Source: Microvirga pudoricolor (lineage in GTDB: Bacteria > Pseudomonadota > Alphaproteobacteria > Rhizobiales > Beijerinckiaceae). From it: a DNA stretch of 64,000 nucleotides. The notes beneath the pieces were generated by a model, which searched no databases, was not told where the DNA came from, and saw only the letters and a list, made by a program, of their open reading frames with translations. The position numbers and the translations under genes are program-made. Below are positions 49,708-63,522 of the stretch, one piece after another. Location: NCBI RefSeq assembly GCF_016892705.1, contig NZ_JAFEMB010000001.1, positions 1,178,001 through 1,242,000 of the forward strand, written 5' to 3'. How positions within the stretch are numbered: the first letter of the stretch is position 1; the number at the start of each line of letters is the position of its first letter.

Positions 49708-50922
49708 TCACTCCGCGGGGGTGGTGGCGTAGATGGGAAGCGAGGCAGGCGCGCGGTCGGTGGTTCCGTCCATCACGTCCTCCATGAGCGTGTTCATGGC
49801 AGCCCAGGTCTTGTCCCACGAGCCGGAGGCCAGGTGGCGGTCGACCTTGGCGAGCCAGGCCTCCTTCGGACGGGACAAGATGGCTTCAGCCTTCTCGACG
49901 ACGTCCTCGGCCGAGTGGGCGATCTCCACGAGACCCTTGTCCCCGTAAGGCCGGATCACGTCCGTGATCGCGGTCGACACGACCGGAACGCCGGCGGCCA
50001 GGAATTCAGGCGTCTTCGTGGGGCTGATGAACCGGGTGGATTCGTTGAGCGCGAACGGCATGAAGCCGACGTTCCAGCCGGACAGGTAAGCCGGAAGCTC
50101 ATCGTAGGACTTGCCGCCGAGCCAATGGATGTTCGGGCGTTGCGGCAGGGATGCCGGATCGATCTTCACCACGGGGCCGATCATGACGAACTGCCAGTCA
50201 GGCCGCAGGTCGGCCACTTGGCCCACGAGCTCCACATCCATGCGCTCGTCGATAACGCCGAAGAAGCCAAGGCGCGGATGCGGGATCGCGGCCTGGTCGG
50301 CCGGATCCGCCTTGACGCACCGGGCCTTGCCGAAATGCCCGGCATCGATGGAGGACGGGAAGCCGTGCACGTTGTGATGACGCTTGCGCTTGGCCTCGTA
50401 CAGGCTCATGCCGCCCGTGAAAACGATGTCGGCGCGGGCAAAGAGGCTGTTCTCGAGGTCGATCAGTTCGCGGGAGGCGCCGCGGAAGAGCGAAAGCTCG
50501 TCCATGTTGTCATAAACACACAGGTCGCATTCCAGGCCGCTCGTGAAGGCGAGCGCCATCGGGGTATAGTACCAGAACACGCGCGGTTCGGTCGCCTCGC
50601 GGCCGATGAGCTCTTCGATGAGATCATGCTGCTCGGCGATGACGTCCTCGTGACCGAGGCCCTCCGGCAGAACCGGCACCGCGATGGTGACGCCCTGGGG
50701 ACGCTGGCTCATGTCCATGTGAGGCTGGACGTTGGGCTTGAAGATCGGCTCTTCGATGACAAGAACGCGATAATGCTTCGCGGCACGGCTCAAGAGGTGC
50801 TGCGGACGCTGCCAGACAAAATCCCACCGGAGATGTGAAAAGCAAACGAGGAGAGGCGTATTCGTGTCGGCCAAAAACGGCGAACGGGGGGCATGCGGCT
50901 GCGTCGTCGAACGCTCTTGCAT
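49708..50922 (-). CDS. Family 1/4-type glycosyltransferase of the galactofuranose cluster
   Basis: The 404-residue GT-B protein starts its domain with LLVCFSHLRWDFVWQRPQHL and has LCVYDNMDELSLF, PRLGFFGVIDERMDVELV, IHWLGGKSYDELPAYLSGWNVGFMPF and the donor-binding SPTKTPEFLAAGVPVVST. This resembles the TuaH/WsaF-like glycosyltransferases that decorate surface polymers. ATG 50922 is chosen; the longer frame to 51066 adds an unlikely N-terminus. With glf and the GH1-RmlD fusion it forms a three-gene operon, so UDP-galactofuranose is a possible donor, by inference. Confidence 0.83.
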   Translation of the reverse strand: MQERSTTQPHAPRSPFLADTNTPLLVCFSHLRWDFVWQRPQHLLSRAAKHYRVLVIEEPIFKPNVQPHMDMSQRPQGVTIAVPVLPEGLGHEDVIAEQHDLIEELIGREATEPRVFWYYTPMALAFTSGLECDLCVYDNMDELSLFRGASRELIDLENSLFARADIVFTGGMSLYEAKRKRHHNVHGFPSSIDAGHFGKARCVKADPADQAAIPHPRLGFFGVIDERMDVELVGQVADLRPDWQFVMIGPVVKIDPASLPQRPNIHWLGGKSYDELPAYLSGWNVGFMPFALNESTRFISPTKTPEFLAAGVPVVSTAITDVIRPYGDKGLVEIAHSAEDVVEKAEAILSRPKEAWLAKVDRHLASGSWDKTWAAMNTLMEDVMDGTTDRAPASLPIYATTPAE

Positions 50923-51108
50923 GGCGCGATCCTCAAAATGTGCGAGTTGTACGGGCGGACAGGTAGTCCGGGGGATGTGTTCAGGCGGTTTGGGACCAAG
51001 CCGCTGAAGGGTCGCGTGGGCGATCCGTCTACTAACCAAATGGATGCATGTTTGTTCCACGCCCATTCATCTTCGTGAACGGACGTTCAGAGGCTGTGCG
51101 TGTTCGCG

Positions 51109-52260: not shown

Positions 52261-52680
52261 TCAGTTGATCCGGTGAAGGGAGACGTAAGCCGTGCCGGCC
52301 GACATCAGCCCGAGTTCCAAGGCCGGCCCCTTGGCCAGATCGATGATGCGCCGATGGGCGAAGGGCCCACGATCATTGACCCGCACCACCACGGACCGGC
52401 CGTTCTTCTCGTTGACGACGCGAAGCTTGGTGCCGAACGGCAGGTAGCGGTGGGCGGCCGTCATGGCCATGGAATTGAAGCGTTCCCCGCTGGCCGTGGA
52501 CCGGCCGTGGAACCCGGGACCGTACCAGGACGCTTGACCCCGCTGGATCTCCCGGCCCGTCTCGATCGTGTTGGCGGCTGGCAGCGAACTCGTCGCCGCG
52601 ACATCGACTCCTGAAGTGTTGCAAGCAGCAACGAAAAGAATTGGCGCCACAATTGACGCACGGGTGAGGATCTTTTTCAA
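52261..52680 (-). CDS. RlpA-like septal ring lipoprotein
   Basis: The 139-residue lipoprotein has a lipobox (VAPILFVAACNTSG, Cys at residue 20) and a double-psi beta-barrel: GQASWYGPGFHGRSTASGERF, MTAAHRYLPFGTKLRVVN, VVVRVNDRGPFAHRRIIDLAKGPALELGL. The catalytic-type Asp in VNDRGPF and the His in TAAHRYLPFG are present. RlpA enzymes cleave denuded glycan strands or bind them at the septum. No SPOR domain is present. The start is TTG 52678-52680, with AGGGGAG upstream. Divergent from the carotenoid operon. Confidence 0.87.
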   Translation of the reverse strand: MKKILTRASIVAPILFVAACNTSGVDVAATSSLPAANTIETGREIQRGQASWYGPGFHGRSTASGERFNSMAMTAAHRYLPFGTKLRVVNEKNGRSVVVRVNDRGPFAHRRIIDLAKGPALELGLMSAGTAYVSLHRIN

Positions 52681-52986
52681 GGATTATGCTCCCCTTGCCT
52701 TTGTGCAGGGGCGAAACGTGACGTATAAAAAGGCGAGAATATGGCAGACCTATTTTCGCCTTATATTGCTTCACTTTTGGCGAAGCTTAACCATTCATTC
52801 AATAGCCTGAAATTGAGTATCATTTGATATGATGACTATCCTATATGTTACTTTGTTTAATTCATTTCTTCCTCGTAACGATCCGGGCGTCGGTCAGCGC
52901 CGCGCCGTCGCCGGGGCCTAGCCCGGCAACGGAGGTGTTCTAGTTAAACGCCCATCGCTTCACCCGCATCCACGAGGCCCCTTCCC
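52681..52986. other. AT-rich divergent control region upstream of the carotenoid operon
   Basis: This roughly 305-base gap is markedly AT-rich between about 52,735 and 52,870, unlike the GC-rich flanks. It separates the rlpA-like gene (minus) from the carotenoid operon (plus). A possible weak plus-strand promoter is TTGAGT (52813-52818), 18 bases, TATCCT (52837-52842). No gene or clear operator was identified. Confidence 0.5.
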
Positions 52987-54561
52987 ATGGCGCACCGATC
53001 CCCGGCGCAACCGTCACCCTCCCAGGGCCTCGCCGGAAGGGTCGCGATCGTGGGCGCCGGCCCCGGCGGCCTTGCGTCCGCCATGCTGCTCGCCCGGGAA
53101 GGCCTGCCGGTCACGGTCTTCGAGAAAGAAGGCGCTGTGGGCGGACGGACCCGCACGATCCACGCGCCGGGCGGTTACAAGTTCGACATCGGACCCACGT
53201 TCTTCCTCTATCCCCGCGTGCTGTCCGACATCTTCGCGGCCTGTGGCGAGAGGCTCGAGGACCACGTGGAGATGAAGCGGCTCGACCCGCAATACCACCT
53301 CGTCTTCGAGGGCGGCGGCGAGATTCGGGCGACGCCGGATCTGGACCGTCTCGAAGCCGAGATCGCGCGCCTGTCGCCCGCCGATGCCCGCAACGTGCGC
53401 CGTTTTCTGGACGACAACCGCGCCAAGCTCGAGGCCTTCCGGCCCGTGCTGGAACAGGATTTTTCCAGCCCCGCCGACATGGTGTCGCCCGCCATGCTGG
53501 CGGCGCTTCCGAAGCTGCGGCCCTTCTCCAGCGTGGACCAGGACCTCAAGCGCTATTTCGCCGATCCGCGCGTTCGCCTCGCCTTCTCGTTTCAGACCAA
53601 GTATCTCGGGATGTCGCCCTTCCAGTGCCCGAGCCTGTTCACGATCCTGTCGTTTCTGGAATACGAGCATGGGGTCTACCATCCGATCGGCGGCTGCGGC
53701 GCGGTGTCGGACGCGATGGCCAAAGTGGCCCGCAAGATGGGCGTCGACATCCGCCTGAACACGCCCGTCGACCACGTGATCTACGAGGGCGGCGAGGCGG
53801 TCGGCGTCCAGGCCGGAGGCGAGCGCATTCCTGCGGGCTCCGTCGTGATCAACGGCGATTTCGGCCACGCGGTGCGCCGCCTGATCCCCGAAGACATGCG
53901 GCGCAACTGGCAGGACCGCAAGATCGACAGCACCAAGCTGTCCTGCTCAACCTTCATGCTCTATCTCGGCATCGAAGGCGGCATGGGAGACCTCGCGCAT
54001 CACACCATCCTCCTATCGAAGGAGTATGAGCGCAACATCCACGAGATCACGAACGGCATCCTGCCGGAGGAGCCGTCGATCTACATCCAGCACGCGGGCG
54101 CCACCGACCCGACCCTGGCCCCGGAGGGCCACACGAGTCTCTACGTGCTCGTGCCGGTCCCCAACCTGCGCTGCGGCATCGACTGGGCCCGCGAGGCGCC
54201 GCGCTACCGCAAGCTTGCCCTGGAACGCCTGAAGCAGCTCGGACTCGGCGACATCGAGAGCCGCATCCGTTTCGAACGCATGGTGACGCCGGTCGATTGG
54301 CGTGACGAGTTCTCGGTCTTCGAGGGCGCCACCTTCAATCTCGCCCACAACCTCACGCAGATGCTCTATTTCCGGCCGCATAACCGTTTCGGTCGCAACG
54401 TCTATCTGGTGGGCGGCGGCACGCATCCGGGCAGCGGCCTCCCGGTGATCTACGAGGGCGCACGCATCACGTCGCGCCTTGTTCTCGAAGACTTGGCCAA
54501 GCGCCGGGCGGGACAGCCCCCTGCGACCGGCCGCAACGCCCTGCCGGAGGCCGCCGAATGA
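52987..54561 (+). CDS. crtN: CrtI/CrtN-type carotenoid (diapo) desaturase
   Basis: The 524-residue FAD enzyme opens with the dinucleotide motif VAIVGAGPGGLASAMLLARE and EKEGAVGGRTRTIHAPGGYKFDIGPTFF, has YHPIGGCGAVSDAMAKVARK in the middle and ends with YLVGGGTHPGSGLPVIYEGA, the carotenoid desaturase C-terminal signature. Members insert double bonds into phytoene or the C30 compounds squalene/dehydrosqualene at the membrane. With hpn genes downstream, a C30 substrate is favoured. It is the first gene of the operon and overlaps the DUF2141 gene by ATGA. The symbol is given by role analogy, since CrtI and CrtN cannot be told apart by motif alone. Confidence 0.85.
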   Translation: MAHRSPAQPSPSQGLAGRVAIVGAGPGGLASAMLLAREGLPVTVFEKEGAVGGRTRTIHAPGGYKFDIGPTFFLYPRVLSDIFAACGERLEDHVEMKRLDPQYHLVFEGGGEIRATPDLDRLEAEIARLSPADARNVRRFLDDNRAKLEAFRPVLEQDFSSPADMVSPAMLAALPKLRPFSSVDQDLKRYFADPRVRLAFSFQTKYLGMSPFQCPSLFTILSFLEYEHGVYHPIGGCGAVSDAMAKVARKMGVDIRLNTPVDHVIYEGGEAVGVQAGGERIPAGSVVINGDFGHAVRRLIPEDMRRNWQDRKIDSTKLSCSTFMLYLGIEGGMGDLAHHTILLSKEYERNIHEITNGILPEEPSIYIQHAGATDPTLAPEGHTSLYVLVPVPNLRCGIDWAREAPRYRKLALERLKQLGLGDIESRIRFERMVTPVDWRDEFSVFEGATFNLAHNLTQMLYFRPHNRFGRNVYLVGGGTHPGSGLPVIYEGARITSRLVLEDLAKRRAGQPPATGRNALPEAAE

Positions 54562-54965
54562 AGACCCTCGCCTGTCTCGCCGCCGCAGGGATGCTTGCAT
54601 CGTCCGCGTCCTTCGCCGCCACCCTCGTGATCCGGGCCGAAGGGGTCAAATCCGGCGAAGGCATGATCTACGCGGGTGTCTGCGACAAGAGCTTCGACGA
54701 GGCCACCTGCCCCTACAAGGACCGCGAGCCCGCCCGGCCGGGCACCGTCGAGTTGCGCTTACGCAACGTCAAGCCCGGCACCTACGCGATCGCGGTCTTC
54801 CACGACCTGAACGGCAATGCGAAGCTGGATCGCAACTTCATCGGATTGCCGAACGAGCCTTACGGATTCTCCAACGATGTGGGGCGGCGCGGACCGCCGA
54901 ATTTCGAGGGTGCGCTGATCACCGTAAAGGAGCCCTCGACCACGGTCGTGATTCCGGTACGCTAG
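54558..54965 (+). CDS. DUF2141 exported protein in the carotenoid operon
   Basis: The 135-residue protein has a signal peptide (LACLAAAGMLASSASFAATL) and one DUF2141 domain: GEGMIYAGVCDKSFDEATC, LRLRNVKPGTYAIAVFHDLNGNAKLDRNFIGLPNEPYGFSNDVG. The motif FHDLNGNxKLDxNxxGxPxEPYGFS is highly diagnostic. The function is unknown. It is predicted periplasmic and is coupled to crtN by ATGA, so a role with the carotenoid product (binding, transport or folding) is a reasonable hypothesis. Two Cys at about residues 42 and 51 could form a disulfide. Confidence 0.87.
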   Translation: MKTLACLAAAGMLASSASFAATLVIRAEGVKSGEGMIYAGVCDKSFDEATCPYKDREPARPGTVELRLRNVKPGTYAIAVFHDLNGNAKLDRNFIGLPNEPYGFSNDVGRRGPPNFEGALITVKEPSTTVVIPVR

Positions 54966-54996
54966 AGACCGCGCATCACCCTCGACGAGGCCTCTC

Positions 54997-56079
54997 ATGC
55001 TGTGGCACGCCTATGCTCTCCTGTCCCATGGCGGGGACCGCATCGGCCTGCGCCACGGACGGGCGGCGGGCCGTCCCCGGCTGCGACGGCGTCCGGACGA
55101 CGTGCTGCGCACCCTGGAGGGCATCGACACCGCCGTCTGGACCGCCAATGCCCTGGCGGCCTGCGCCGAGACCGGCCTGATCGAGGCCCTGGCCCAGCCC
55201 CAGACCCTCGGGCGCCTCTCCGTTCGAACCGGCCTGCCGGAGGATTCCGTTCGGATTCTCGCAGGGCTTCTGGCGAGCCTGGGGTTCGCCTGGGAGGAGG
55301 ACGGTCGGGTTCACGCCGCTCCGGCCCTGGCGCCCTTCACCACACCGGACGGCGCGGCAACCTTCCGGGCCGCCCTGCGCGCGCCCTTGCTGCAGGCCGA
55401 GGCGTTCCGGGCCCGCGCGGCCACGGGAACGCTCGCCCTCGACGGCTGGACCCACACGGACGCGGCCATCATCGACGCACAAGGTCTGCTGACGCGGCTC
55501 TGGGCCGAGCGGGCGATCCCGAAGCTGCGCTTCCTGCCGGGGCTCACCGCACGGCTGTCGGCCCCAGGGGCGGCGCTTCTGGACGTGGGTGCCGGGGCGG
55601 CCGGCCTGTCGATCGCGCTCTGCGGCGCCTTTCCGCACCTGTCCGCCGCCGCGCTCGAGCCCGCGCCGCAGCCCGCCGCCATCGGCGAGGCGCGGATCGC
55701 CGAGGCAGGCCTAGCCGCGCGCGTCGCCCTGCGGCGCCAGCGCGTGGAGCACTTGGAGGACGAGGCCGCCTTCGACCTCGCCTTCCTGCCGCAGATGTTC
55801 CTGCCGGACGCCATCATGCCGGAAACGGCCCGGCGCGTGTTCCGGGCCCTGCGCCCGGGCGGCTGGGTGCTCGTGGCGGTGCTCGCCCGCCGGGGCCACG
55901 ACGTCCCGTCCGCGATCAGCCGCCTGAAGAACCTGCTCTGGGGCGGCAATGTCCGCGACGCCGACGCGGTGCGGCCGAGCTTGGCGGAGGCGGGGTTCAG
56001 CCCCATCATCCGGGCGCCGGGCGGGGGCGCGTTCCGCATGCTCTGCGCCCGCCGTCCAATCCTGCGGGAGGCTTCTTGA
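54997..56079 (+). CDS. SAM-dependent methyltransferase of the carotenoid operon
   Basis: The 360-residue protein has an N-terminal winged-helix dimerisation region (NALAACAETGLIEALAQPQTLGRLSVRTGLPEDSV) and a class I SAM domain with AALLDVGAGAAGLSIALCGAFP, a late VLVAVLARRGHDV and AEAGFSPIIRAPGGGA. This resembles plant-type/CrtF-like O-methyltransferases. In C30 pathways methyl esters of diapolycopenedioate are known, so carboxyl methylation is a candidate role; this is inference. GAGG precedes ATG 54997. It lies 31 bases after the DUF2141 gene. Confidence 0.78.
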   Translation: MLWHAYALLSHGGDRIGLRHGRAAGRPRLRRRPDDVLRTLEGIDTAVWTANALAACAETGLIEALAQPQTLGRLSVRTGLPEDSVRILAGLLASLGFAWEEDGRVHAAPALAPFTTPDGAATFRAALRAPLLQAEAFRARAATGTLALDGWTHTDAAIIDAQGLLTRLWAERAIPKLRFLPGLTARLSAPGAALLDVGAGAAGLSIALCGAFPHLSAAALEPAPQPAAIGEARIAEAGLAARVALRRQRVEHLEDEAAFDLAFLPQMFLPDAIMPETARRVFRALRPGGWVLVAVLARRGHDVPSAISRLKNLLWGGNVRDADAVRPSLAEAGFSPIIRAPGGGAFRMLCARRPILREAS

Positions 56080-56158
56080 AGTCGTTCCGCGTCCGCCTAG
56101 AACCTGAAGAACGGGACAACGCGACGCCATGGGCTCCGTCCCGCCGGGAGGAATTTTC

Positions 56159-57694
56159 GTGAGCGCTCAAGGAACGTCCGTCGCGATCATCGGTGGCGGC
56201 CTCGGCGGCCTTGCCGCGGCCTGCGTGGCGGGAGCCCGCGGCCACAAGGTGACCCTCTACGACAAGAACCCCTGGCTCGGCGGCAAGGCGGCGGTACTGC
56301 ACGAAGGCGGCTTCCGGTTCGATATGGGCCCCACCATCCTGACCGTGCCCCGCGTGCTGGACCGCATCTTCGCGGAAGCCGGCCGCAAGGTCTCCGACTA
56401 CATGGATCTCGTCCGGCTCGACCCGCAATGGCGCTGCTTCTTCGACGACGGCACGCGCATCGACCTGCAGGAGAACATCGACGCCATGGCGCAGGCCATG
56501 GACCGCTTCGCGCCCGGCAGCAACGCCGGCAAGGGCTACAAGCAGTTCCAGGAACTGTCCGAGAACCTTCACGGCATCTCCGAGCGGTTCTTCTTCTGGA
56601 AGCCCGTGGAGGACCTGTTCGACACTATCAACATTCGGGCCAACATGAACCCGGGGACGTTGAAGGACGTGCTGTCACTCCGCATGGGCTCGTCGGTCGC
56701 CGGCACGATCCGGTCCAAGGTGAAGGACGACCGCCTCGCCCAGATGCTGGACCACTTCACGCAATATGTCGGCTCGTCCCCCTACGGCTCCCCCGCCGTG
56801 CTCTGCGCCATCGCGCACATGCAGGCGGCCGACGGCGTGTGGTACCCCATGGGCGGAACGCGCGCCGTGGCGGAGGCCCTCGTCAAGCTCGCGGGCGAGC
56901 TCGGGGCCACCTTCCGGCCCGACACCGACGTGGCCTCGCTGGCGATCGAGAACGGCGTCGCCACCGGCATCGTCACGGCGTACGGCGAGACCGTGCGGTA
57001 CGACAACGTGATCTCCAACATGGATTCCATGCGCACCTACCGCGAACTGGTGGGCGGCGAGGTGGGCGAGCATTACGCCAAGAAGGATTTCGAACCCGCT
57101 TGTTCCGGCGTGGTGCTCTATCTCGGCCTGAATAAGCGCTACGACCAGCTCCTCCACCACGACTTCGTGTTCTCCCGCGACCCGGAGGAGGAGTTCGACT
57201 ACATCTACCGCAAGGGCGAGCCCGCGCCCGATCCCACCTGCTACATCGCCGCCCCGTCGATGACGGATCCCAGCGTGGCGCCGGAGGGCGGAGAGGCGCT
57301 CTACGTGCTGGTGCATACGCCGTACCTGCGCCCGCACCACGATTGGTCGCAGATGTTCCCGGCCTACCGGCAGGTGATCCTCGACAAGCTCAAGCGCACG
57401 GCCGGCATGGCCGACATCGAGAGCCGCATCGTGTTGGAGCGGCACCTGACGCCGCAGGACATCCACGACCGCTACAAGGTGCTCAACGGCGCGATCTACG
57501 GGTTGGCGAGCCACGGCAAGTTCATGGGCGCGTTCAAGCCCGGCAACCGCAGCCGTCAGGTACAGGGCCTGTACCTCGCGGGCGGCGCGGCCCATCCCGG
57601 TCCCGGCATGCCCATGGTGATGATGTCGGGCTGGATCGCCGCCGATGCCATGGACCAGGACAGCAAGGGCGAGACCTTACGGAAGGCGTCTTGA
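56159..57694 (+). CDS. CrtP/CrtNb-type carotenoid oxidase/desaturase homologue
   Basis: The 511-residue FAD protein is a second carotenoid desaturase-superfamily member: VAIIGGGLGGLAAACVAGARG, NPWLGGKAAVLHEGGFRFDMGPTIL, VWYPMGGTRAVAEALVKLA and a C-terminus YLAGGAAHPGPGMPMVMMSGW. The second gene of a CrtN pair usually oxidises terminal methyl groups of a diapocarotene to aldehyde or acid. GTG 56159 has a strong GGGAGG six bases upstream and is preferred over ATG 56129. Its TGA is overlapped by the next gene (TTGA). Whether it desaturates or oxidises is not decided by the sequence. Confidence 0.83.
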   Translation: MSAQGTSVAIIGGGLGGLAAACVAGARGHKVTLYDKNPWLGGKAAVLHEGGFRFDMGPTILTVPRVLDRIFAEAGRKVSDYMDLVRLDPQWRCFFDDGTRIDLQENIDAMAQAMDRFAPGSNAGKGYKQFQELSENLHGISERFFFWKPVEDLFDTINIRANMNPGTLKDVLSLRMGSSVAGTIRSKVKDDRLAQMLDHFTQYVGSSPYGSPAVLCAIAHMQAADGVWYPMGGTRAVAEALVKLAGELGATFRPDTDVASLAIENGVATGIVTAYGETVRYDNVISNMDSMRTYRELVGGEVGEHYAKKDFEPACSGVVLYLGLNKRYDQLLHHDFVFSRDPEEEFDYIYRKGEPAPDPTCYIAAPSMTDPSVAPEGGEALYVLVHTPYLRPHHDWSQMFPAYRQVILDKLKRTAGMADIESRIVLERHLTPQDIHDRYKVLNGAIYGLASHGKFMGAFKPGNRSRQVQGLYLAGGAAHPGPGMPMVMMSGWIAADAMDQDSKGETLRKAS

Positions 57695-58530
57695 GTCGGA
57701 GCCCAAACAGGCCACGCGCCGCCCCCCATGGCCGCCGCCCGGCGGAAACCTCCCCCGTGACACGCCGCTCGGCCGTGATCCACGGGTTCATGGTGCAGGT
57801 CTTCCGGCGCTTCTTCAACCGGCACATGAACGCGCTGCGGGTCGCCCAATGGGGCGTGCCCGAGACGGAGGCGGGCGGCCCCGTCATCGTGTATTCCAAC
57901 CACCCGGCCTGGTGGGACGCGGCGCTCTACATCCTGGCCGCGGACCGCTTCTTTCCCAACCATGAGAGCTACGCGCCCATCGACGCCGCGATGCTGAAGC
58001 AATACGGCATCTTCGGGCGCATCGGCGCGTTCGGCGTGGATCTCGACTCGCCCCGGGGCGCCGCACACTTCCTGGCCGCGAGCGCCGAGATCCTCTCCCG
58101 GCAGGACCGCGCCCTCTGGATCACCGCGCAGGGCCGGTTCGGCGACGTGCGCGAGCGGCCCCTGGGCCTGAAGCCCGGCCTCGCCCATGCGGTCGACCTC
58201 GCTCCCGATTGCACAATCCTGCCCCTGGCCATCGAATACGCGTTCTGGCTCGAGCGCGGCGCGGAGGCCTGCATCGCCTTCGGGCCGCCGATGCGGGGCG
58301 CCGACCTCGCGCGGCTTCCCCGGGCGGAGCGTCTGCGCCACCTGGAGGAGCGGCTCACCACGACCCTCAACCGCCTGAGCGCCGACGTGATGAGCCGCGA
58401 GCCGGACCGTTTCCGTCTCGTCCTGGAGGGCAGGTCCGGCGTCGGCGGGTTCTACGATGCCTGGCGCAGGCTCGCATCCGCCGCGCGCGGACGCCGCTTC
58501 GATTCCTCCCACGAGGGCCGCGCCACATGA
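57691..58530 (+). CDS. PlsC-like acyltransferase of the carotenoid operon
   Basis: The 279-residue protein has acyltransferase block I IVYSNHPAWWDAALY (N-H-x4-D), block II FGRIGAFGVDLDSPRGA, block III-like LWITAQGRFGDVRERP and ILPLAIEYAFWLE. No strong membrane span is seen. The start is TTG 57691, overlapping the upstream stop (TTGA) and preceded by GGAAGG; GTG 57757 is an alternative. By position between oxidase and glycosyltransferase genes, it may acylate a carotenoid glycoside, as CrtO does in staphyloxanthin synthesis, though CrtO is of a different family. Confidence 0.8.
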   Translation: MSRSPNRPRAAPHGRRPAETSPVTRRSAVIHGFMVQVFRRFFNRHMNALRVAQWGVPETEAGGPVIVYSNHPAWWDAALYILAADRFFPNHESYAPIDAAMLKQYGIFGRIGAFGVDLDSPRGAAHFLAASAEILSRQDRALWITAQGRFGDVRERPLGLKPGLAHAVDLAPDCTILPLAIEYAFWLERGAEACIAFGPPMRGADLARLPRAERLRHLEERLTTTLNRLSADVMSREPDRFRLVLEGRSGVGGFYDAWRRLASAARGRRFDSSHEGRAT

Positions 58531-59633
58531 CCGACATCCTGGCCCTCGTCCTGCTGGCGCTCGCGGTCTTCCCGCTCCTCCTGGGCCTGATGAACCTCGC
58601 GATCCTGCGCGCCACCCCGCGCTACCGGCCGCACGGGGACGTCCTTGTGTCGATCCTGATCCCGGCCCGCAACGAGGCCGCCCATATCGGCCCCGCCCTC
58701 GTGGCGGCGCGCGCCAGCATGGGCGTGCCCGTCGAGATCCTCGTCATGGATGACGGCTCGACGGACGAGACCGCCGCCATCGTGCAGGCCCATGCGGCCC
58801 GGGACGGGCGCGTGCGTCTTCTCACCGCGCCCGCCCTGGAGGATGGCTGGACCGGCAAGGTCCATGCCTGCCACCACCTCGCGGAGGCGGCCTCGGGCAC
58901 GCACCTTCTATTCGTGGATGCCGACGTCCGCCTGGAGCCCCAGGCGGCGGCCGCCCTCGCCGGGCACGCACAGGCGAGCGGCGCGGGCCTCGTCAGCGCC
59001 GTGCCGCGCCAGATCACCCGCAGCCTCGGCGAATTGCTCACCGTGCCGACGATCAACATCCTGCTGCTGGGCTACCTGCCCATGGGCTTCATGCGCCTGT
59101 CCCGCGATCCGGGCCTCGGAGCCGCCTGCGGCCAGCTGGTCCTGGCGGAGCGCGAAGCCTATCGCGAGGTCGGTGGGCACGGAGCGATCCGGGGTCTGCT
59201 GCACGATGGGATCCAGCTCGCGCGGGTCTTCCGCCGCCGGGGCCACATGACGGACCTCGTTCTCGGGGACACACTTGCGTCCTGCCGCATGTATCGCGGC
59301 TTCGGCGAGGCCTGGGCGGGCTTCGCCAAGAATGCCCACGAGGGCATGGCGACCCCGGTCGGCCTGCCGGTCTGGACGATCCTGCTCCTCGGCGGCCACG
59401 TGCTGCCCTTCTGCCTCCTTCCCTTTGCGTTCGGCCCGGTCCTGGCCCTGGCGGCGCTGGCGTCTCTGTCCGCTCGCGCCATCGTGACGCTGGCCACGCG
59501 GGAGAACCTGTTGTCGATTCCCCTGCATCCCTTCACGATGCTCGTGGGTCTGGCGATTCAATGGAGCGTGCTCCTGCGGATCGGCGGCGCCCGTCGGGCC
59601 GGCTGGAAGGGCAGGCTCTATCCGGCGGGGTGA
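58527..59633 (+). CDS. CrtQ-like family 2 glycosyltransferase
   Basis: The 368-residue protein has an N-terminal membrane span, a GT2 domain (VLVSILIPARNEAAHIGPALV, VPVEILVMDDGSTDETAAIV, the DxD in HLLFVDADVRLEP, and GIQLARVFRRRGHM) and C-terminal membrane spans (ILLLGGHVLPFCLLPFAFG, LHPFTMLVGLAIQWSVLL). This architecture is shared by CrtQ and hopanoid-associated glycosyltransferases. It would glycosylate the carotenoid carboxylate or a hopanoid-like lipid. It overlaps the acyltransferase by ATGA and lies three bases before the hpnCD fusion. Confidence 0.82.
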   Translation: MTDILALVLLALAVFPLLLGLMNLAILRATPRYRPHGDVLVSILIPARNEAAHIGPALVAARASMGVPVEILVMDDGSTDETAAIVQAHAARDGRVRLLTAPALEDGWTGKVHACHHLAEAASGTHLLFVDADVRLEPQAAAALAGHAQASGAGLVSAVPRQITRSLGELLTVPTINILLLGYLPMGFMRLSRDPGLGAACGQLVLAEREAYREVGGHGAIRGLLHDGIQLARVFRRRGHMTDLVLGDTLASCRMYRGFGEAWAGFAKNAHEGMATPVGLPVWTILLLGGHVLPFCLLPFAFGPVLALAALASLSARAIVTLATRENLLSIPLHPFTMLVGLAIQWSVLLRIGGARRAGWKGRLYPAG

Positions 59634-59636
59634 GGC

Positions 59637-61298
59637 ATGGGGCGCACCGTCACCACTGGCAAAGGCCCACGAGACGAGAACTTTCCCGTCGCGTCCCTTC
59701 TGCTCGCGCCCGAGCGCCGCGCCGCCGTCCTGGCCTTCTACGGCTTCGTGCGCGAGGCCGACGACATCGCCGACGCGCCGGACCTCTCGGGTCCGGACAA
59801 GATCGCGCGCCTCGACGCGTTGGAGGCCGCCCTCCTGGCGGGCGATCCTGCCCATCCTGGCGCCGCCCGGCTTCACGCCGCCCACCGCCGGCACGGCGCC
59901 GGGATCGACGAGGCCAGAACCCTTTTGGACGCCTTTCGGCAGGACGCCGTGAAACGCCGCTACGCCGATTGGGGCGAGCTTGCGGCCTATTGCGCCCTGT
60001 CGGCCAATCCCGTGGGGCGCTTCCTGCTGCGGCTCCACGGCGAAGGCGACACGGCCCTGGCGCCCGCCGACGCCCTGTGCACGGCGCTCCAGATCCTCAA
60101 CCATCTCCAGGACGCGCCGGACGACCGCGCGGCGCTCGACCGGGTCTATTGCCCGGTCGGCTGGATGGAGCAGGCGGGCGGCGAGGAGGCCTTCTTCTCG
60201 CCCGGCAACGCGGCGCGGCGGCGGGCCGTGCTCGATTCCGTCCTCGACCGGGTCGATGCCCTCGTGGAGGCCGCCTCCGCCCTGCCGGAGCGCCTGCGCG
60301 ACCGCCGCCTGCGCGCCCAGAGCCTGGCCACCCTGGCGCTCGCCCGGGCGCTGTCCCGTCGCCTGCGCCTGCACGACCCCGTGCTCCGCCGCGTTCAGGT
60401 GAGCAAGGCCGATGTTCTGCGGGCTTTCGGTGCGGGCCTGCGCGGGCTGCGGCCCGTGGAGAGCCGCGACGCCGCCATCACGGCCGCCGCCGTGCGGCGC
60501 TCGGGATCGTCCTTCCGGCTCGGGATGCAGAGCCTCACCGACGAGCGACGCCGCGCCATCCACGCGGTCTACGCCTTCTGCCGCGCCGTGGACGACATCG
60601 CCGACGGGGCGGCGCCGGTCGCCGAGAAGCTCGCCTTCCTGGCGGCGTGGCGACGGGAGGTCGACCATCTCGACGCGTCGCAGACCCCTGTCGGCCGCGA
60701 GCTGCGCCGGGCCGCCGACCGCTTCGGCCTCCCCTTGGGCGAATGCCACGCGCTCCTCGACGGCATGGAAACCGACAGCGGCGAATCCGTCCGCCTCGCG
60801 GATGACGCGGCCCTCGACCTCTACGGCCGCCGCGTGGCGGGCTCGGTGGGCGCTTTGTCGATCCGCATCTTCGGCCAGCCCGAGGCCCACGACTTCGCCC
60901 TCGGGCTGGGACGCACCCTCCAGCTCGTCAACATCCTGCGCGACGTGGACGAGGACGCGGCCCGCGACCGGGTCTACGTGCCCCTGGAGCGGCTCGCGCA
61001 GGCTGGCCTGCGCGACGCGCCCGCCCGTGCCCTCGTGGCGGATCCGCGCTTCGCCCGGGTCTGCCGTGACCTCGCCGGGCAAGCCCGCGCGGGCTTCGCG
61101 ACGGCCGACGCGGCCCTGAAAGCCTTCGACCGGTCGGCCCTCAAGCCCGCCATCCTGATGATGGAAAGCTACCGCCGCCTGCTGGACCGGCTCGAGGCGC
61201 GCGGCTGGGGCACCCGCCACGGCAAGCTCCGGCTCACCGCAGGCGACCGCCTCCAATTGCTGACGCTCGCCGTCACGTTTCCCATGAGGACCGCCTGA
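59637..61298 (+). CDS. hpnCD: HpnC-HpnD fusion: presqualene diphosphate / hydroxysqualene synthase
   Basis: The 553-residue protein holds two complete squalene/phytoene-synthase domains in one frame. Residues 1-265 resemble HpnC: ENFPVASLLLAPERRAAVLA, first Asp motif VREADDIAD (D42-D46) and second motif ILNHLQDAPDD (D159-D163). Residues 280-553 resemble HpnD: SSFRLGMQSL, first motif CRAVDDIAD (D319-D323) and second motif NILRDVDED (D436-D440), with GRRVAGSVG and RVYVPLERL. In the three-step route HpnD makes presqualene diphosphate from two farnesyl diphosphates, and HpnC converts it to hydroxysqualene. They are normally separate genes. Starts three bases after the glycosyltransferase stop; its TGA shares a base with the hpnE ATG. 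Confidence 0.88.
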   Translation: MGRTVTTGKGPRDENFPVASLLLAPERRAAVLAFYGFVREADDIADAPDLSGPDKIARLDALEAALLAGDPAHPGAARLHAAHRRHGAGIDEARTLLDAFRQDAVKRRYADWGELAAYCALSANPVGRFLLRLHGEGDTALAPADALCTALQILNHLQDAPDDRAALDRVYCPVGWMEQAGGEEAFFSPGNAARRRAVLDSVLDRVDALVEAASALPERLRDRRLRAQSLATLALARALSRRLRLHDPVLRRVQVSKADVLRAFGAGLRGLRPVESRDAAITAAAVRRSGSSFRLGMQSLTDERRRAIHAVYAFCRAVDDIADGAAPVAEKLAFLAAWRREVDHLDASQTPVGRELRRAADRFGLPLGECHALLDGMETDSGESVRLADDAALDLYGRRVAGSVGALSIRIFGQPEAHDFALGLGRTLQLVNILRDVDEDAARDRVYVPLERLAQAGLRDAPARALVADPRFARVCRDLAGQARAGFATADAALKAFDRSALKPAILMMESYRRLLDRLEARGWGTRHGKLRLTAGDRLQLLTLAVTFPMRTA

Positions 61299-62581
61299 TG
61301 ACCGGCCGCACCCACATCATTGGCGCCGGCGTCGCGGGCCTGAGCGCGGCCCTCGCGGCCTCGTCCGAGGGCCGCGAGACGATCCTCTACGAGGCCGCCC
61401 CCCAGGCGGGCGGGCGCTGCCGCACCCTCGACCCCGCCGACGGCTTCCGCCACGACAACGGCACCCACGTGCTGTTCACGGCCAACCGCTGCGCCCTCGA
61501 TCTGATCGAGACCGTCGGGGCGCGCCATCAATGGATCGAGCCCGAGCCGGAGGGATTGCCGCTCCTCGACGCGCGAACCGGGCGCCTGAGCCACGTGGGC
61601 CTCACGCCCTGGTCCTGGCTCGACCGCGCCCGCCGCCCGGCGGGCCTGAGCCTGGAAGATCTCGGACGGATCGCCCGGCTCGCCTTCTCGTCCGACGACC
61701 GCCCGGTTTCCGAGGTGGTGGGCAAGACCCCCATCCTCGACACGCTCATCGAGCCGCTCACGGTGGCGGTGCTCAACACCCCCGTGGCGACCGCCTCCTC
61801 CCGCCGCCTCGGCCGCGCCATGCGCAGCCTCCTGTCCCCCGGCGCGGGCCACCTGCTCGTCGCCCGCAACGGCCTGAGCGAGGACCTGGTTCAGCCTGCC
61901 CTCTGGGCGCTGGAGGACCGCGGCGCCACGATCCTGACGGGACAACGCCTGACATCCATCCGCACGCGCGGAGACCAGGTCGCCGCCCTCGTCACCACGG
62001 ACCGGATGGTGGTGCTGCGGCCCGACGACCAGGTGGTGCTCGCCCTGCCGCCCTGGGAGATCGCCCGCCTCGTTCCCCATCTGTCGGTGCCGGACGCGTT
62101 CGAGCCGATCCTCAACCTGCATTTCCGCATGCGCGGCCTCGACCGCCCGCGCTTCGTGGGCCTCATCGGGACCCTGGCCCAGTGGGTGCTGGTGCGAGCC
62201 GACCACGTGAGCGTCACCGTCTCGGCCGCGGACGCCGCCATGAGCCGACCGGCCGCCAGCCTGTCGGCCGCGATCTGGCGCGAGATCGTGCCCGCGCTCC
62301 AGGCGGTGGGCCTCGACGTCGCCCCGGACCGGCAGCCGGAAGCCCGGATCGTGAAGGAAAAGCGCGCCACCATCCGGCAGGCGGCGGGACCCATTCCCCA
62401 GCCGCTCCTGCGGCCCTTCGCCAACATGGCGCTGGCAGGCGACTGGATCGGCGATTTCCCGGCCACCATCGAGAGCGCCGTGATGGCGGGCGAGCGCGCC
62501 GCCGCCCTGCTGGGGCGCCCCCGAGTCCGGGGCTGCGCGCCAAGGGCCGGGGACGCGGCGCGCACGGGCCAGACCGCATGA
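61298..62581 (+). CDS. hpnE: Hydroxysqualene dehydroxylase HpnE
   Basis: The 427-residue flavoprotein has THIIGAGVAGLSAALAASSEG (FAD motif), EAAPQAGGRCRTLDPADGFRHDNGTHVLF, LLVARNGLSEDLVQPALWAL and a C-terminal LAGDWIGDFPATIESAVMAGERAA. The ending GDWI-x-TG-like pattern with ATIESAV is typical of HpnE, which reduces hydroxysqualene to squalene. It follows hpnCD with a one-base overlap (TGATG), and it overlaps ispH by ATGA. Confidence 0.9.
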   Translation: MTGRTHIIGAGVAGLSAALAASSEGRETILYEAAPQAGGRCRTLDPADGFRHDNGTHVLFTANRCALDLIETVGARHQWIEPEPEGLPLLDARTGRLSHVGLTPWSWLDRARRPAGLSLEDLGRIARLAFSSDDRPVSEVVGKTPILDTLIEPLTVAVLNTPVATASSRRLGRAMRSLLSPGAGHLLVARNGLSEDLVQPALWALEDRGATILTGQRLTSIRTRGDQVAALVTTDRMVVLRPDDQVVLALPPWEIARLVPHLSVPDAFEPILNLHFRMRGLDRPRFVGLIGTLAQWVLVRADHVSVTVSAADAAMSRPAASLSAAIWREIVPALQAVGLDVAPDRQPEARIVKEKRATIRQAAGPIPQPLLRPFANMALAGDWIGDFPATIESAVMAGERAAALLGRPRVRGCAPRAGDAARTGQTA

Positions 62582-63522
62582 GCGCGAGCCTGCCGCCCCT
62601 GACCGTTCTCCTGGCCTCCCCGCGAGGCTTCTGCGCCGGGGTCGACCGCGCCATACAAGCCGTGGAGGACGCGCTGATCCGCACCAACCGGCCCGTCTAC
62701 GTGCGTCACGAGATCGTGCATAACGGCCAAGTGGTGCGCGACCTCAAGCGCAAGGGCGCGGTTTTCGTGGAGGACCTGGCCCAAATTCCCGACGGGGCCG
62801 TGGCGATCTTCTCCGCGCATGGCGTTCCCCGCTCGGTGGAGCAGGAGGCCAAACGGCGCGGTCTCGCCGTGCTCGACGCCACTTGCCCGCTCGTGCGACG
62901 GGTGCATGTGGAGGCTCGCCGCCAGACGCAGGCGGGGCGCGAGGTCATCCTCATCGGCCACCGCGACCACGTGGAGGTGGAGGGCACCGTCGGACAGGTG
63001 AAGGGAACCGTGCACGTGGTCGGGAGCGTCGCGGAGGCGCTGACCGTCCAGGTGGCGACGCCGGACCGTGTCGCCTACGTGACCCAGACGACGCTCTCCG
63101 TGGACGACACGCGGGAGATCATCGCGGCCCTCAAGGAGCGCTTCCCGGCCATCGAGGGCCCGGACGTGAAGACGATCTGCTACGCCACCCAGAACCGCCA
63201 GATGGCCGTGCGGGTCATCACGGAGCGGGCGGACCGCGTGATCGTGTGCGGCGCGCGCAACTCCTCCAACTCCAACCGCCTGCGCGAGGTGGCCGAGCAC
63301 CGCGGCTGCCCGGCCCTGCTGATGGAGGACCTGCGCGACCTGACCCTCGCGTTCATCGACGGCGCGCGGGTGATCGGCCTCACGGCCGGCGCCTCGGCTC
63401 CCGAGATCATGGTGCAGCAGGCCCTGCGCCAATTGGCCGAGTGGCGTCGCGTCTCCGTGGAGGAGGTTCGCGTGACGGAAGAGGGCACCCGCTTCGCCCC
63501 GGTGGATTTCGCGCGGCTCTAG
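62578..63522 (+). CDS. ispH: 4-hydroxy-3-methylbut-2-enyl diphosphate reductase IspH
   Basis: The 314-residue enzyme makes IPP and DMAPP in the last step of the MEP pathway. The three 4Fe-4S cysteines are in SPRGFCAGVDRAI, VLDATCPLVRRVH and KTICYATQNRQMAV; active-site residues appear in VRHEIVHNGQVV, FSAHGVP, LIGHRDHVEVEG and CGARNSSNSNRL, with GASAPEIMVQ near the end. It terminates the operon, linking precursor supply with squalene and carotenoid synthesis. ATGA overlap with hpnE. Confidence 0.94.
   Translation: MSASLPPLTVLLASPRGFCAGVDRAIQAVEDALIRTNRPVYVRHEIVHNGQVVRDLKRKGAVFVEDLAQIPDGAVAIFSAHGVPRSVEQEAKRRGLAVLDATCPLVRRVHVEARRQTQAGREVILIGHRDHVEVEGTVGQVKGTVHVVGSVAEALTVQVATPDRVAYVTQTTLSVDDTREIIAALKERFPAIEGPDVKTICYATQNRQMAVRVITERADRVIVCGARNSSNSNRLREVAEHRGCPALLMEDLRDLTLAFIDGARVIGLTAGASAPEIMVQQALRQLAEWRRVSVEEVRVTEEGTRFAPVDFARL

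Follow-up and report, generated by a model that had tools for sequence, protein, structure and literature searches.

A Microvirga operon with a fused HpnC–HpnD, probably dedicated to synthesis of a decorated C30 carotenoid from squalene

The 64,000-nucleotide stretch of the Microvirga pudoricolor genome analysed here (contig NZ_JAFEMB010000001.1, positions 1,178,001 to 1,242,000; hereafter, the window) holds a compact group of nine plus-strand genes at 52987..63522, encoding two carotenoid-type desaturases, a DUF2141 protein, a methyltransferase, an acyltransferase, a glycosyltransferase, a fused HpnC–HpnD, an HpnE-like protein and IspH (Table 1). The initial annotation of this DNA had described nine plus-strand genes joined by overlaps or by fewer than 80 bases, and the layout is as it stated. 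Desaturase 1 overlaps the DUF2141 gene by 4 bases, gaps of 31 and 49 bases flank the methyltransferase gene, the acyltransferase and glycosyltransferase genes overlap by 4 bases, HpnCD follows after 3 bases, and HpnE overlaps HpnCD by 1 base and IspH by 4. The largest gap, 62 bases between desaturase 2 and the acyltransferase gene, holds for a GTG start at 57757; this start codon is uncertain, in that a TTG further upstream would overlap desaturase 2 and later starts widen the gap to 95 bases. The nine genes are presumably co-transcribed.

Table 1. Features of the operon region, with family matches and, where applicable, the family cut-off
Feature	Position	Strand	Match or context
Candidate promoter-like motif, consensus CTgGtC...TCTAgtT	52918..52945	+	upstream of desaturase 1
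Desaturase 1, CrtN-type; predicted first desaturations	52987..54561	+	TIGR02734 528.7 bits (cut-off 238.1)
DUF2141 protein	54558..54965	+	PF09912 96.8 bits
Class I S-adenosylmethionine-dependent methyltransferase	54997..56079	+	PF13649
Desaturase 2, CrtP-type; predicted terminal oxidase	56129..57694	+	TIGR02734 409.8 bits (cut-off 238.1)
Acyltransferase; position as META1p3664	57757..58530	+	PF01553; no NCBIfam match
Family 2 glycosyltransferase, CrtQ-like; position as META1p3663	58527..59633	+	family search
Fused HpnC–HpnD, 553 aa	59637..61298	+	TIGR03464 335 bits (250); TIGR03465 353 bits (279)
HpnE-like flavoprotein (putative hydroxysqualene dehydroxylase, divergent)	61298..62581	+	TIGR03467 249.1 bits (283.05)
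IspH, second copy of the genome, operon lineage	62578..63522	+	TIGR00216 303 bits (188)

HpnC and HpnD share one open frame, both halves of which exceed their NCBIfam cut-offs and carry two DxxxD motifs each (D42/D46, D159/D163, D319/D323 and D436/D440), invariant in the 13 fusions aligned. The earlier family assignments stood for the desaturases, both of which lie above the TIGR02734 cut-off, as well as for DUF2141, the methyltransferase, the acyltransferase, the glycosyltransferase, HpnC–HpnD and IspH; for HpnE, the score fell below the family cut-off. Desaturase 1 does not reach the equivalog cut-offs of CrtID or CrtD, and the trees placed both desaturases outside the CrtI clade, which contains Pantoea CrtI, and outside a CrtD-like clade, so labelled from sequence and position rather than by a profile. 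Comparison with CrtI, CrtN and CrtP, as the initial annotation had proposed, thus grouped neither protein with CrtI or the CrtD-like enzymes. Desaturase 1 formed a clade of its own, its branching relative to the Bacillota CrtN and CrtI clades being unresolved. Among named proteins, those closest to desaturase 2 come from Microvirga, with identities of up to 90%, and CrtP sequences from Methylobacterium and from Methylobacterium-like genomes are 80–83% identical to it.

Squalene–hopene cyclase (SHC) gave no matches in the window's own genome, where a separate shc/hpnF locus would have suggested that HpnCDE serves hopanoids as well. The crtI_fam profile gave 17 matches, of which only the two operon desaturases exceeded the cut-off, and the SQS_PSY profile matched three sequences, namely, the HpnC half, the HpnD half and a 286-aa protein whose CrtB score, 47.5 bits, is far below the cut-off of 550 and whose neighbours we take to be SecF and TrmFO. 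With SQS_PSY and the family profiles, nothing in this genome scored as a CrtB- or CrtM-type synthase, and no CrtM is present beside CrtN at the operon. IspH occurs in two copies. Given that the genome shows no SHC, has no protein that scores as CrtB and holds no desaturase above the cut-off outside the operon, the reading of the operon as a squalene-to-C30 pathway is well supported, as is the earlier proposal that squalene from HpnCDE, rather than dehydrosqualene from CrtM, feeds the carotenoid branch.

We therefore consider, with a probability of about 0.86, that the operon constitutes a nearly complete dedicated pathway to a decorated C30 carotenoid, with squalene as the intermediate. The operon IspH would raise the supply of isopentenyl and dimethylallyl diphosphate, with farnesyl diphosphate coming from the general pathway; the fusion would convert two farnesyl diphosphates via presqualene diphosphate to hydroxysqualene on one polypeptide, and HpnE would complete squalene. 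Desaturase 1 would then desaturate squalene, desaturase 2 would oxidise the terminal methyls, and an aldehyde dehydrogenase encoded at an unlinked site probably completes the carboxylic acid. The glycosyltransferase and acyltransferase would yield an acyl-glucosyl ester, as in Methylobacterium extorquens AM1, the methyltransferase probably converts the other carboxyl to its methyl ester, and the DUF2141 protein, predicted to be exported, may bind or place the pigment. By analogy with tested relatives, from which the squalene intermediate, desaturation, glycosylation and acylation are predicted, the product is probably a methylated acyl-glucosyl diapolycopenedioic acid; the methyl ester, the aldehyde dehydrogenase step and the role of DUF2141 are more conjectural.

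The squalene route to C30 carotenoids itself is already published for M. extorquens (PMC10448405) and Azospirillum brasilense (PMC13274349). In M. extorquens AM1, a CrtP-acyltransferase-glycosyltransferase cassette makes acyl-glucosyl diapolycopenedioic acid (PMC10448405). M. extorquens AM1/PA1 (META1p3663, 3664, 3665 and 3670) shares with the window the CrtN, CrtP, acyltransferase and glycosyltransferase genes and the squalene precursor, but keeps hpnC, hpnD and hpnE as individual genes in a cluster with shc elsewhere in the genome, and, unlike the window, the six Methylobacterium-like loci fetched have neither IspH nor the methyltransferase in the cluster. In A. brasilense Sp7, carotenoids disappear when hpnCDE is deleted, and squalene builds up when crtNPOQ is deleted (PMC13274349); this squalene-mediated pathway and the grouping of its HpnCD with carotenoid-side sequences (see below) resemble the present case, whereas the genes are split between two loci (hpnCDE and crtNPOQ-aldH), with HpnC and HpnD separated by one stop. 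The staphyloxanthin operon shares the CrtN-, CrtP- and CrtQ-type steps but carries, beside CrtN, a single gene of the phytoene/squalene synthase family (CrtM) and has no HpnCDE in the stretch. As in the window, hpnC and hpnD form one gene in Acidobacteria subdivision 2, reported in 2017, but in a hopanoid gene setting (PMC5462960). None of the titles and abstract openings listed in the literature searches dealt with the present operon. What is new is the arrangement, in which the fused HpnCD, the HpnE and the additional IspH copy belong to clades apart from the hopanoid copies of the same family.

A scan of named genomes yielded 56 loci, of which the closest 31 (Microvirga, Salinarimonas and Hansschlegelia; 53–72% HpnCD identity) were compared, the other 25 being more distant. 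The eight core genes (all except DUF2141 and the methyltransferase) are present in 29 of the 31 loci, in a constant order except in Hansschlegelia, where the gene for the glycosyltransferase is found upstream in the opposite orientation; this retention implies that the grouping is not due to chance. The exceptions are M. puerhi, in which 563 bases of contig precede HpnC, and M. vignae, in which broken remnants persist. HpnC and HpnD lie in a single frame in 31/31 loci, the HpnD half of M. vignae being broken further on. Among the more distant loci, four from Roseobacteraceae have the desaturase, acyltransferase, glycosyltransferase and DUF2141 genes adjacent to an unfused hpnCDE, and both desaturases, the acyltransferase and the glycosyltransferase also occur together in all ten fetched family loci devoid of the squalene module. 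The decayed region of M. vignae (L046 9620-12839) retains fragments of desaturase 1 and the glycosyltransferase, with HpnD and HpnE split across frames, and M. ossetica carries the entire operon without DUF2141 on a 977-kb plasmid (L207 1-21506).

Hopanoid operons, such as that of NGR234, are the best-known setting of HpnCDE, and M. puerhi retains the module without desaturases, so that the operon HpnCDE might serve hopanoids or free squalene, with the desaturase neighbourhood being incidental. However, the window genome lacks SHC, and among the 33 genomes behind the named loci a cyclase over the cut-off was found in just two, M. puerhi and M. massiliensis (short matches under the cut-off occur in two more), of which the latter has a hopanoid-type hpnCDE in addition to the fused operon. 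Furthermore, the squalene module accompanies desaturase genes in the same 29 loci and in the four Roseobacteraceae loci, rendering this alternative very improbable.

In trees of the squalene module, the operon HpnCD fusions form one clade (17 rows, 100/100), which is joined by HpnCD of the Roseobacteraceae C30 loci (100/95; 98/92 in the tree with Azospirillum), and 24 rows from genomes with a cyclase are set apart (100/99). With Sp7 added, Azospirillum HpnCD falls on the carotenoid side (91/89); a carotenoid set of 18 including Azospirillum is not rejected (approximately unbiased test, p 0.16), yet neither is it demonstrated. The operon HpnE proteins likewise form one clade (100/99), and the IspH tree resolves three clades, each at 100/99, one for the operon copies (14 rows), one for those at hopanoid loci (9 rows, 5 different) and one for housekeeping copies (26 rows), leaving unsupported the possibility that the operon IspH was copied from a hopanoid locus of the same family. 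A single fusion event for all HpnCD is also unsupported: in G138, from another genus of the family (L079/L191), HpnC and HpnD are in frame, fall in the hopanoid clade and share a contig with the cyclase, apparently representing an independent fusion.

The presence of the fusion was compared with that of hopene cyclase across the family. Of 149 family genomes searched, 100 matched the fused query; the 78 with a best E < 1e-40 were counted and the 22 weaker matches left out as likely other synthases. Ten genomes proved fused on the fetched loci; among the other 68, 20 were checked on loci and 48 were taken as unfused, none of the matches listed spanning both halves (L054, with HpnD before HpnC, was not counted as fused). 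A cyclase match is present in 68/68 genomes counted as unfused and absent from eight of the ten fused ones, the exceptions being M. puerhi (G122) and G138. Three of the 71 cyclase genomes (G021, G050 and G134) are draft assemblies counted from matches that are incomplete or fragmented, and G102, which is 84% complete, has a cyclase yet no HpnC/HpnD match in the counted set.

The hopanoid locus of M. puerhi comprises a glycosyltransferase, a separate hopanoid-type HpnD, the cyclase and further genes, presumably HpnG, HpnH, IspH and HpnN, and lacks HpnC and HpnE. No HpnC other than the fusion was detected in the genome, the matches being the fusion and the hopanoid-locus HpnD, nor was an orthologue of desaturase 2 (best E 6.4e-12); HpnE adjoins the fusion and is the only one seen, although HpnE was not searched genome-wide. 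The simplest reading of these sequences is that a former pigment module now probably supplies squalene to hopanoids, and its being the sole HpnC found fits squalene as the product of the module. More tentatively, with odds that we place somewhat below even, alphaproteobacteria might possess two squalene modules that diverged long ago, serving hopanoids and pigment, respectively; the self-sufficient Microvirga version (IspH, fused HpnCD and HpnE) would have let hopanoids drop, to be taken over in M. puerhi after desaturase loss, such that the modules swap ownership.

The observations that weigh against a dedicated C30 pathway concern desaturase 2, the tailoring genes, HpnE, the aldehyde dehydrogenase and a published report of zeaxanthin. 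Desaturase 2 joins Staphylococcus CrtP only weakly (90/75) and on a long branch. The methyltransferase is encoded in 21/31 loci and, among the loci examined, in Microvirga only, and DUF2141 in 14/31 (including L023, where it is apparently frame-shifted, and L043, from Hansschlegelia, where it lies about 4 kb from desaturase 1); given these counts, neither is essential. In the first HpnCD tree, Kiloniellales and a metagenome-assembled Pseudomonadales genome join the carotenoid side weakly (88/55). HpnE misses its equivalog cut-off (249.1 against 283.05 bits); carotenoid-locus HpnE score below it in 4/4 cases tested, whereas the single hopanoid-locus HpnE tested reaches 390 bits, so the HpnE reaction is not certified by the profile. 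Moreover, the Roseobacteraceae HpnE stand apart and that of Azospirillum groups with hopanoid HpnE (91/87); hence, there is no single carotenoid HpnE clade, and one carotenoid clade for all enzymes is not seen. The low scores might indicate that a divergent HpnE hands hydroxysqualene or dehydrosqualene to desaturase 1 without release of squalene. We consider this very improbable, because the SHC locus of M. puerhi appears to depend on the HpnC and HpnE of the module (subject to the extent of the HpnE search noted above) and A. brasilense crtNPOQ mutants accumulate squalene (PMC13274349), albeit with an HpnE outside the operon clade. The operon protein may still work like HpnE despite its low score.

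According to the title of the initial annotation, the nine genes could lead from isoprenoid precursor to decorated C30 product. The C30 part is supported, but completeness is not, because no aldehyde dehydrogenase is encoded in the operon, nor is there one in the window. The search covered the window and 207 loci, with queries from the Palleronia and M. ossetica plasmids, which have such an enzyme in or beside their C30 loci. Direct linkage after IspH was found in M. massiliensis and Hansschlegelia, that is, in only 2/31 loci, a rarity that counts against this part of the reading. In other settings, a related enzyme lies in or beside three of the four Roseobacteraceae C30 loci, is annotated beside the Limimaricola locus, and is present at three of the ten family loci without the squalene module (L175, where it is cut by the contig end, L176 and L177); a more distant relative lies near the Azospirillum lipoferum locus, and aldH is named within the crtNPOQ cluster of Sp7 (PMC13274349). 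The window's own genome has one unlinked relative (contig C9, 240377-241789), 48% identical to the M. ossetica enzyme. Across Microvirga, the enzyme occurs in 28/28 genomes with an intact operon (as the linked form in M. massiliensis) and in 0/5 without one (M. puerhi, M. vignae, whose operon was judged at its locus only, and three members of the genus lacking the genes); the corresponding Fisher p of 4e-6 is uncorrected for kinship and hence overstates the association. Conversely, no match at E ≤ 1e-60 was found in six Methylobacterium-like and six Salinarimonas/g21-type C30 genomes, which weakens the enzyme as a general answer. The aldehyde dehydrogenase of M. extorquens AM1 is unknown, two candidates having been deleted without effect (PMC10448405), and the C9 enzyme may represent this missing step, providing a concrete candidate for the aldehyde-to-acid conversion left open there.

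The remaining alternative is that the product is a C40 carotenoid, for example zeaxanthin, with the desaturases acting as CrtI and CrtB encoded elsewhere. The window's own genome has five lycopene-cyclase matches, and both it and M. sesbaniae HBU67692 have PF05834 matches over the Pfam cut-off. However, among the matches listed, these cover only the N-terminal flavin adenine dinucleotide part (about 36–40 of 380 positions; in the window's own genome, the first 33–36), unlike the full-length matches of G020, G060, G091 and G072; accordingly, a C40 CrtB-CrtI-CrtY route has neither a protein scoring as CrtB nor, among the matches listed, a full-length CrtY in the window genome. Zeaxanthin absorbs maximally at about 450 nm. 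In M. sesbaniae SWF67558, a pigment of m/z 569.3 was read as zeaxanthin, and crtB and crtI (‘crtBI’) genes were listed in four strains (PMC11356035), yet the maxima reported for the SWF67558 pigment, 503 and 525 nm, are far from those of zeaxanthin, and the crtI printed for HBU67692, 1550 bp, has about the length of operon desaturase 1 in that strain, 1551 bp. On this evidence, which does not include a search of M. sesbaniae for crtB or unrelated cyclases, production of a C40 carotenoid by the operon appears highly unlikely, and the genome sequences call into question the printed zeaxanthin assignment for Microvirga, with which they conflict. Separately, a full-length lycopene cyclase accompanies the C30 operon in three g21 genomes and in G072 (L100-L103), where C30 and C40 pathways may coexist.

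If the operon is indeed a dedicated C30 pathway, it would allow C30 pigment synthesis to be studied in a single transferable unit free of hopanoids, the loss of which harms M. extorquens mutants (PMC10448405). The best solved relatives of the methyltransferase, MTHB/DSYB and DnrK, are small-molecule methyltransferases, and an unknown methyltransferase has been proposed in M. extorquens PA1 by the AM1 paper (PMC10448405); the operon enzyme is thus a suggested candidate for methyl-ester pigments. DUF2141, a recurrent unknown of C30 loci, has a signal-peptide-like N-terminus and two invariant cysteines (26 aligned sequences), and its gene adjoins crtG in many Sphingomonadales (PMC5989583). In three Methylobacterium-like C30 loci (approximately L168 7511-10071, L169 9261-11752 and L172 8302-10550), DUF2141 and CrtP are separated by a gene pair that, judged from its sequence, resembles an ABC-type ATPase with its permease. 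The Roseobacteraceae and Limimaricola C30 loci (L047, L050, L051, L053, L205 and L239) have the desaturase, acyltransferase, glycosyltransferase and hpnCDE genes side by side, DUF2141 in L047, L050, L051, L053 and L205, and, unlike the window, an aldehyde dehydrogenase in or beside L047, L050, L053, L205 and L239; they further differ in that hpnCDE and the desaturase genes are divergently oriented, HpnC and HpnD are unfused and no IspH was seen in the cluster. On the Palleronia sp. LCG004 plasmid, a sulfotransferase gene follows the glycosyltransferase gene (L205 13923-15032), raising the possibility of a sulfated C30 pigment.

Upstream of the operon, no sigma-70-type match was found, and stress- or light-responsive sigma-factor promoters were rejected, the EcfG pattern occurring in 1/49 upstream regions and RpoE-ChrR in 0/49. 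The promoter-like motif of Table 1 could be aligned in 13 of the 49 regions, the window included. The operon is preceded by a minus-strand frame at 52261-52680, presumably encoding an RlpA-type protein, and minus-strand frames also come after it. About 2 kb upstream, a further glycosyltransferase is encoded on the minus strand (49708-51066), with a weak match to TuaH (74 bits; cut-off 550).

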